From Mycoplasmatota bacterium (GTDB lineage Bacteria; Bacillota_I; Bacilli_A; RF39; UBA660), in the NCBI GenBank assembly GCA_022771205.1, contig JALFCF010000006.1:124001-188000 (forward strand): 64,000 nt of DNA, in the 5' to 3' direction. The notes below the pieces were generated by a model. It saw nothing but the letters and a program-made list of their open reading frames with translations, was not told where the DNA came from and did not search any database. Each line of letters begins with the position of its first letter. The stretch's first letter is position 1. Made by a program: the position numbers and the translations under genes. Shown piece by piece: positions 20,532-22,390 of this stretch.

Positions 20532-21920
20532 TTAAAATTTAATTCTTTCTTCTACGTAATTAACCACTTCTTCTAAAGGTAATACTATTTGTTCCATAGT
20601 ATCTCTATCTCTCAAAGTAACAGTACCATTATTTAAAGTATCATCATCAACAGTAACAGCAAATGGTGTACCGATGGCATCACATCTTCTATATCTCTTA
20701 CCAATAGATGCAGTCTCATCATAACTAGTTACAAAATGACTAGCTAACGTACTATAAACCTCTCTAGCCTTTTCACCATGATATTTTTTATTTAATGGTA
20801 AAACTGCTACTTTATATGGAGCAAGCGCAGGATGAAATCTCATAACCTCACGACTATCTCCACTTTCCAATACTTCTTCATCATAAGCTTCACATAGAAA
20901 TGCTAAAATCACACGATCTAAACCAAGTGCTGGTTCAATACAATATGGAATAAACTCTTCATTAGTTTCAGGATCAACACATTTAAAATCCTCACCACTA
21001 CCTTCCATATGATTCTTTAAATCATGATCTGTTCTATTAGCAATTCCCCATAATTCATCAAAACCAAATGGATATAAATATTCAATATCAGTAGTGGCTT
21101 TACTGTAATGAGCAAGTTCTTCTTTCTTTTGATCATAAAAATGTAAATGTTCATTTTTCATACCTAAAGAAGTTAAAAAATTCATACAGTAATTTTTCCA
21201 ATAAAGGAACCATTCTTCATCTTCTCCTGGCTTACAGAAAAATTCTAACTCCATTTGTTCAAACTCACGAGTACGGAAAGTAAAATTACCAGGTGTAATT
21301 TCGTTACGGAAACTTTTACCAGTTTGTCCAATACCAAAAGGAAGTTTAGCTCTCATACTTCTTTGAACATTCAAAAAGTTTACAAACATACCTTGAGCAG
21401 TTTCAGGTCTAAGATAAATTGTACTTTTTTTATCTTCAGTAACACCTTGGAAAGTCTTAAACATAATATTAAAATCACGAATATCAGTAAAGTTTTCACT
21501 TCCACAATTAGGACACTTAATATGCTTTTCTTTAATAAAATTTTCTAATTGTTCATGAGACCAACCATCTGCATGCTCATCACTCTCATGATCTTTCAAA
21601 TACTGATTAACAATTTTATCAGCACGAAATCTTTCTTTACAATCTTTACAATCCATAAGTGGATCAGTAGCCATTTTCACATGTCCTGATACCTCCCATG
21701 TTTTAGGATTCATCAAAATAGCTGACTGAATACCATAATTATATGGACTTTCCTGAATGAATTTCTTCCACCAAGCTCTACGAATATTTTCTTTTAGCTC
21801 AACACCTAAAGGACCATAATCCCATGTATTGGCAAGTCCTCCATAAATTTCACTTCCCTGAAAGATAAATCCATATTGTTTACAATAATTAGTTAATTTT
21901 TCCATTGTTAATTTTTCCAT
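20532..21920 (-). CDS. glyS: Glycyl-tRNA synthetase, single-chain class II type
   Basis: 462 residues, the length of the alpha2 GlyRS found in many Bacillota, archaea and eukaryotes. It begins with [20 protein letters not shown] and [20 protein letters not shown] (motif 1 region). Motif 2 is [14 protein letters not shown], and motif 3 is in [20 protein letters not shown] zinc-ribbon-like [17 protein letters not shown] pair lies within the insertion, and an anticodon-binding domain closes the protein. Expression is probably set by the T-box-like leader at 22042-22170, with a 21-codon ORF lying between leader and gene. Confidence 0.97.
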
Positions 21921-21964: not shown

Positions 21965-22030
21965 TTAAATCCCTCGGTAATCTCCCGAATAAGTAATAGA
22001 TAGAATAAAAATTAACATACGATAATCCAT
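21965..22030 (-). CDS. Short ORF between T-box leader and glyS
   Basis: A 21-codon frame begins MDYRMLIFILSITYSGDYRG and ends at TAA 21967-21965. It has a clear AGAGGTG ribosome-binding site 7 bases ahead of the ATG, as strong as that of glyS. It lies between the T-box terminator and glyS, 44 bases before glyS. It could be a leader peptide or an accidental frame. A small hairpin TCGG-GAGATTA-CCGA lies near its end. Confidence 0.4.
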   Translation of the reverse strand: MDYRMLIFILSITYSGDYRGI

Positions 22031-22041
22031 AATTATTCACC

Positions 22042-22170
22042 TCTTTGTAAATAAAAAAATCTAGAATATGTAAGGACGAGTCTCCCCGCGGTTCCACCTT
22101 ACTTATTCTAGACGAATCAGCTTTAACTTATACTGCTCACGGCTTTCCACACCGGTCATCACACTTATTA
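22042..22170 (-). promoter_or_regulatory. Unusually short T-box-like leader of glyS
   Basis: The 3' half is a clear T-box: antiterminator AAGGTGGAACCGCGGGG followed by a terminator made of TCTAGAATA(AGTAAGG) and CCTTACATATTCTAGA with a run of T (complement of about 22050-22110). From the predicted start the transcript has only some 60 bases before the antiterminator, and no AG-bulge or GGTTGGTG loop as seen in the other three T-boxes of this window. Instead a compact three-way fold is possible: GAC, CGG-loop-CCG, CAG-loop-CTG, GTC. The loop GTGTGGAAAG holds a possible GGA glycine specifier. Glycine specificity is inferred from glyS. Confidence 0.7.
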
Positions 22171-22204: not shown

Positions 22205-22390
22205 GAATTTTTATAATTCTATTTTACCAAATCAAATATTGATATTTCATAATAGAAACTGGTGAAGAAGAATATTTTTTTACTTTCTTTCTTCCCAAAA
22301 AGCTCTTGATTTTAATCAACATACAACCATCCCCTAAAATGTGCACATATTATAACACATAAGAAGAAAAAAGTCAATTGCACTATGAAC

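Follow-up and report, generated by a model that had tools for sequence, protein, structure and literature searches.

A putative glycine T-box with an ultrashort Stem I ahead of glyS in a family of uncultured small-genome bacteria

The glyS locus and its leader

The window, by which we mean the whole 64,000-nucleotide stretch of DNA analysed here, carries on its minus strand the glyS gene for glycyl-tRNA synthetase (462 aa, 20532..21920), and ahead of it a leader (~22169-22053, minus strand) with the layout of a T-box of the transcription-attenuation type. Judged by comparison with its relatives, this leader is very probably a T-box that senses tRNA-Gly and controls glyS transcription. A near-consensus promoter, TTGACA-17 nt-TATATT (22204-22176, minus), places the predicted start near 22169, about 66 nt ahead of the antiterminator helix (22102), close to the roughly 60 bases of the original prediction. 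Upstream of the leader there is a second promoter-like site (22377-22349, minus), which would serve an ORF of ~32 codons (22224-22322, minus) that stands just ahead of the leader and has a similar counterpart in L016. Between the terminator and glyS lies a 21-codon ORF, MDYRMLIFILSITYSGDYRGI, with a Shine-Dalgarno sequence (21965-22030, minus); it is kept in L016 and L017, and may encode a leader peptide or belong to a further step of control.

The link to glyS holds well beyond the window. In 119 of 124 leaders (101 model matches plus 24 more, minus L023:4141, which is another gene's T-box), glyS follows downstream on the same strand. The remaining five comprise L318, L319 and L320, in which glyS comes later in the gene run (behind proS in L318), and L191 and L269, which end near contig ends. 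The L318 leader, a short glycine T-box, heads the run proS - ORF - glyS - further gene, such that a glycine tRNA might also control prolyl-tRNA synthetase there. A small gene intervenes between T-box and glyS in L018, L031, L034, L041, L320 and L322, as in many relatives; by eye, its product resembles LOG/lysine-decarboxylase-like proteins. Two loci of one genus, L015 and L031, encode two types of GlyS that are 66% identical behind nearly the same leader, as if glyS had been replaced under a kept switch.

Comparative fold of Stem I and the glycine specifier

GlyS matches were present in 60 of 60 genomes searched; 80 named contigs were kept of 591 confirmed, 30 glyS loci were fetched, and the short leader was recognised by eye in 26 of these. 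For the seed alignment (A2), 22 leaders were aligned by MAFFT from sequence only, leaving out L022 and L026, which misaligned, L017, which is nearly the same as L016, and L045, which lies outside the seed. Applied to this alignment, RNAalifold predicted Stem III and the antiterminator downstream of a Stem I made of the basal helix and a 4-pair upper helix; of the 23 pairs in this fold, 12 show two-sided changes. A 21-pair structure over the same 22 relatives is paired in 98.3% of cells and has a covariation score of 0.307. Shuffles gave 0.136 +/- 0.012, none of the 500 reaching the observed value, and slid partners gave 0.035-0.070. The share of paired cells is again 98.3% in the alignment of all 101 model matches (A3; 97 distinct rows), which was fitted to the model and still holds L023:4141, and there 17 of the 21 pairs show two-sided change. 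Labels of long and short leaders assigned by regular expression were wrong in some cases and enter none of our counts. Covariance across the glyS leaders of relatives, proposed originally as a check on the short Stem I, thus backs it and not another fold.

This Stem I, supported by covariation and by RNAalifold, spans only ~30 nt (22134..22163, minus). Its basal helix pairs 22163-22161 with 22136-22134 (minus), and its upper helix pairs 22154-22151 with 22143-22140 (minus). Between them lies what we take, from knowledge of the motif, to be a K-turn, with a GAU bulge at 22160-22158 and GA/GA pairs formed by 22157-22156 with 22138-22137 (minus). Two-sided changes occur in the outer basal pair and in all 4 pairs of the upper helix. 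The apical loop is GUGGAAA (22144..22150, minus), with the specifier GGA at 22148-22146. Stem I has about this length in the 124 leaders too, and neither there nor in the window's Stem I was a distal tRNA-elbow domain (double T-loop) found. Covariation, over the 22 leaders and then the 101 matches, therefore bears out the original suggestion of an ultrashort Stem I with GGA in its apical loop, while comparison does not support the compact three-way fold offered alongside it: the GGA hairpin stands, the downstream hairpin turns out to be an ordinary Stem III (AUUC/GAAU), and the second predicted hairpin falls away. That second hairpin, which appears in the minimum fold of the single sequence (GAGCAG...GCUGAUUC), was dropped because comparison backs AUUC/GAAU. 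An S-turn made from the loop GAA and the AGUA after Stem I was likewise set aside, since many relatives have UAUA at the latter place.

The codon in the loop is nearly invariant in kind. With one flanking base on each side it reads TGGAA in 105 of the 124 leaders, TGGCA in 15, and TGGCG, TGGTA and AGGCA in one each, with one leader unparsed; GGN is therefore found in the loop of 123, N being A in 105, C in 17 and U in 1, glycine codons throughout. The base after the specifier is A or G, and the U before and the A after the codon are nearly constant, a context that would resemble the anticodon loop of a tRNA. Counted by model columns, the loop has 7 nt in 89 leaders, 8 in 22, 6 in 8, 9 in 3, and 11 and 5 in one each; counted by at least 3 contiguous pairs, it has 7 in 39, 8 in 29, 9 in 20, 6 in 14 and 5 in 8, with no such loop in 14. 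Seven is the commonest loop size, not a rule. The codon helix itself is 3-4 bp long, with imperfections in some leaders. A run of 3 or more contiguous pairs closes the loop in 110 of 124, against a mean of 90 and a maximum of 101 when the two sides are exchanged between leaders, a loose test that carries little weight.

Suitable partners for both ends of such a switch are encoded in the genome, which has genes for tRNA-Gly(UCC) and tRNA-Gly(GCC), both with T as discriminator base before CCA (U73). The specifier GGA fits the anticodon UCC without wobble, and UGGA in the bulge of the antiterminator fits the tRNA end UCCA. In the accessible text of the TBDB paper, glycine specifiers are GGC at 0.77 and GGA at 0.17 (PMC7778990), so GGA itself is already known; a GGA-bearing hairpin of the present type is not described in the literature covered, which includes the accessible portion of that source.

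Canonical T-boxes with the same K-turn function in vitro without a protein helper. This background speaks against the idea that tRNA-Gly sensing here needs such a helper, for instance a K-turn-binding protein of the L7Ae family, to make up for the missing contacts. In that idea's favour, the K-turn bases are among the most conserved in the leader, and YbxF is named as a possible helper of T-box K-turns in the available text of PMC7583486. We consider dependence on a helper unlikely, although it is the rival to which we give most room.

Promoters close to the K-turn bear on whether the short Stem I could be the remnant of a misplaced start. Among 122 leaders with at least 70 nt of upstream sequence, 112 reach a promoter score of 9 or more, as do 44 of 122 base-shuffled sequences, and in those 112 the distance from the -10 element to the GAUGA of the K-turn has a median of 15 nt and is most often 13-15 nt. 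A promoter so near the K-turn leaves no room for a normal Stem I. The original prediction named a start further upstream, yielding a normal Stem I, as the result that would undo it; such a start would make a longer RNA, and the promoter-like site at 22377-22349 may indeed produce some longer transcripts. However, the near-consensus promoter occupies the would-be site of a longer Stem I, both here and in the other promoter-bearing leaders, and two loci of one genus (L015 and L019) differ in sequence upstream of the leader. We therefore regard a true start further upstream as the least credible of the alternatives and continue with a leader that begins near 22169.

Antiterminator and a predicted terminator around it

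Where Stem II would be expected, Stem I is followed by a linker of 16 nt (22118..22133, minus), whose last part, next to Stem III, is a purine motif. A Stem II with S-turn and a IIA/B pseudoknot are absent, and the linker leaves no room for them. Stem III, AUUC-GUCUA-GAAU followed by AA (22105..22117, minus), is preceded by a purine-rich string, and the AA after it is present in 122 of 124 leaders. The antiterminator consists of helix A1 (22102-22097 with 22075-22070, minus), the T-box bulge UGGAACC (22096-22090, minus) and helix A2 (22089-22085 with 22080-22076, minus), its core being TGGAACCGCG (22096-22087, minus); a bulge UGGN-ACC between two helices is a defining feature of T-boxes, and the part of the leader matched by Rfam RF00230 is this antiterminator together with Stem III. 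The original prediction of a clear antiterminator and terminator is upheld, with a hairpin downstream of the core and then seven T at 22059-22053 (minus). Four short glycine leaders (L315, L316, L317 and L281) lack an ordinary Stem III and form the nested terminator described below directly; they may represent a still more reduced T-box or one in decay.

The predicted terminator pairs UCUAGAAUA, made up of the loop and 3' arm of Stem III, with UAUUCUAGA, and so closes around the whole antiterminator (22060..22112, minus) ahead of the U tract (22053..22059, minus). Its 3' strand could not be aligned by MAFFT, and pairing was accordingly tested leader by leader. In 116 of 119 parsed leaders (five being unparsed) at least 8 pairs of the predicted hairpin enclose the antiterminator, and a U tract follows the hairpin in 118 of 119; L236 and L251 have no nested terminator, and L273 has no clear U tract. 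The 3' arm of Stem III is re-paired almost entirely in 96 of 122 leaders. In 111 of 118 leaders (six of the 124 being unparsed in this test) the Stem III loop matches its own terminator strand, compared with a mean of 73.3 when strands are exchanged between leaders; among leaders with unusual loops the values are 46 of 51 against a mean of 24.6 and a maximum of 31. For the window's leader, the predicted energy of Stem III plus antiterminator is -13.2 kcal/mol and that of the terminator -22.2 kcal/mol.

The switch therefore appears, from these pairings, to be one of Stem III against the terminator. In the textbook model, as given in the accessible text of PMC7583486 and PMC10907184, the terminator forms from the 3' strands of A1 and A2 once they have left the antiterminator. 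Here, by contrast, both strands stay in place, and A1 is extended by the Stem III loop and 3' arm pairing with the downstream strand. Predicted folds give the same nested arrangement in five other T-boxes of the window's genome (L003, L004, L006, L009 and L011), which means that it is not tied to a short Stem I, while others in the genome look ordinary in their predicted folds. A terminator enclosing the antiterminator is not described in the open literature within our coverage, outside of which key older papers lie. It would be a second departure from the textbook T-box.

An action on translation, like that of the ultrashort ileS T-boxes of Actinobacteria, seems very unlikely in view of these predicted terminators. 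Short Stem I elements are described mainly in translational T-boxes (accessible parts of PMC7583486 and PMC10482949), but the near-universal U tract after the hairpin speaks against it here, and the probable ribosome-binding sites, that of the small ORF as well as that of glyS, fall outside the hairpin.

In the mechanism that we propose, the anticodon of uncharged tRNA-Gly(UCC) would pair with GGA in the apical loop of the ~30-nt, K-turned Stem I, and the UCCA end of the tRNA with UGGA in the antiterminator bulge. With the tRNA charged or unbound, downstream sequence would instead pair with Stem III's loop and 3' arm, lengthening A1 into a terminator around the antiterminator, so that transcription would stop. 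The binding of tRNA, the sensing of its charging and the direction of the switch are what we infer from the fold and its partners.

Distribution, known T-box classes and meaning

A strict search pattern requires GATGA, then TGGNA 3-9 bases on, then TGGAACCG a further 38-68 bases on. Of the 386 genomes of the window's family it occurs in 206, spread over 104 of 150 genera, and is absent from the other 180; a few places are plainly chance or coding (e.g. G075, G202), and the reversed control pattern is present in one genome (G019) among the rows examined. Model R1 at E <= 0.001 matches 378 of the 386 family genomes, a count that includes weak matches to ordinary T-boxes, and has no match whatever in 8. 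Searched across the class at E <= 1e-6, it hits 29 of 247 genomes, 23 of the family itself and six others, whose matches (L205-L210) have a long or intermediate Stem I; one of these, L206:220-337 from another family, is a T-box with an intermediate Stem I, a possible specifier GAC and a bulge UGGC. As far as sampled, the short form thus looks confined to the window's family. A wide pattern run across the phylum gave mostly chance and coding matches and supports nothing.

Rfam is nearly blind to the short form. The RF00230 scan suggested in the original prediction gives the window's glyS leader 36.4 bits against a cutoff of 93, its 5' half being spent on promoter sequence, whereas two other leaders in the window reach 125.2 and 118.5. 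Across the genome RF00230 has 14 matches, 9 of them passing, with the glyS leader the lowest; on 16 short leaders it passes none, with a best score of 45.6 and no match in two, and on long-form controls it scores 107.1, 105.2, 85 and 72.1, so that two pass. A score this far under the cutoff might be read as the mark of a relic, a leader whose codon hairpin no longer decodes and whose terminator merely fixes the level of glyS, and a short Stem I alone binds weakly according to the available text of PMC7583486. We think this very unlikely: the helix is kept by two-sided changes, GGN and the K-turn are fixed, the form recurs across the genera found by the strict pattern, and conservation extends to the bulge, to Stem III with its purines and to the alternative terminator.

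A working T-box, our preferred reading, may have arisen within the family by trimming. The L021/L321 leader, from the same family and another genus, has a long Stem I with a distal loop, the same specifier context and a nested terminator. In a GlyS tree made by a quick method and poorly resolved, L021 falls inside the family among short forms; the named members of the tree are mostly uncultured Bacilli MAGs. The short form seems to have lost the upper part of Stem I by deletion, in one event or several, although it is possible that a long Stem I was regained in L021.

The fold, the conservation of the specifier, the tRNA partners, the alternative terminator and the linkage to glyS are each seen in the sequence, and by every sequence feature tested the leader is a T-box, yet it belongs to none of the four published classes. 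In these classes, according to the accessible text of PMC10482949, codon pairing gets help from the elbow domain, from Stem II or from the two together; a leader with neither would be a fifth combination. The same text provides the two closest comparisons. Class II, the Bacillus subtilis glyQS type, is likewise glycine-specific and transcriptional, with a linker for Stem II, a Stem III, an antiterminator and a UGGA bulge; its Stem I, however, has an internal specifier loop and a distal elbow-binding domain, both of which the present leader lacks, carrying its specifier in the apical loop and enclosing the antiterminator in the terminator. Class III, the Nocardia farcinica ileS type, shares the short Stem I, the K-turn, the apical-loop specifier and the lack of an elbow domain, but needs Stem II, is mostly translational, and serves isoleucine in Actinobacteria with a loop of 5-6 nt, whereas the present leader has no Stem II, ends in a terminator and serves glycine in Bacillota with a loop mostly of 7 nt. 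RF00230 is alike in its antiterminator and Stem III. For a short Stem I without Stem II, no description was found in the open literature, including the accessible parts of PMC2494555 and PMC10651847, key older papers lying outside that coverage.

We give somewhat better than even odds to a fifth class of T-box, with a short Stem I, no Stem II and transcriptional action, in which a loop of mostly seven bases and of the form N-U-GGN-A-N would imitate an anticodon loop (like U33-anticodon-A37), contacts with the codon and with UCCA would be enough, and Stem III, not the antiterminator, would compete with the terminator. The accessible text of PMC7583486 offers two counterpoints: a shortened Stem I has hardly any affinity for tRNA unless Stem II is there as well, and T-boxes that act on transcription depend as a rule on the elbow contact or a long Stem I.

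The original prediction had missed the absence of Stem II, the nested terminator and the family-wide spread of the short form. If the reading is true, a conserved, family-wide T-box with neither elbow domain nor Stem II would show the minimum for reading a tRNA, and the question of that minimum would become testable on an RNA of ~115 nt. Searches based on RF00230 would then be missing an entire T-box group in uncultured bacteria. Taken together, glyS control in a large family of uncultured bacteria with small genomes appears to rest on a stripped-down, tRNA-reading hairpin switch.
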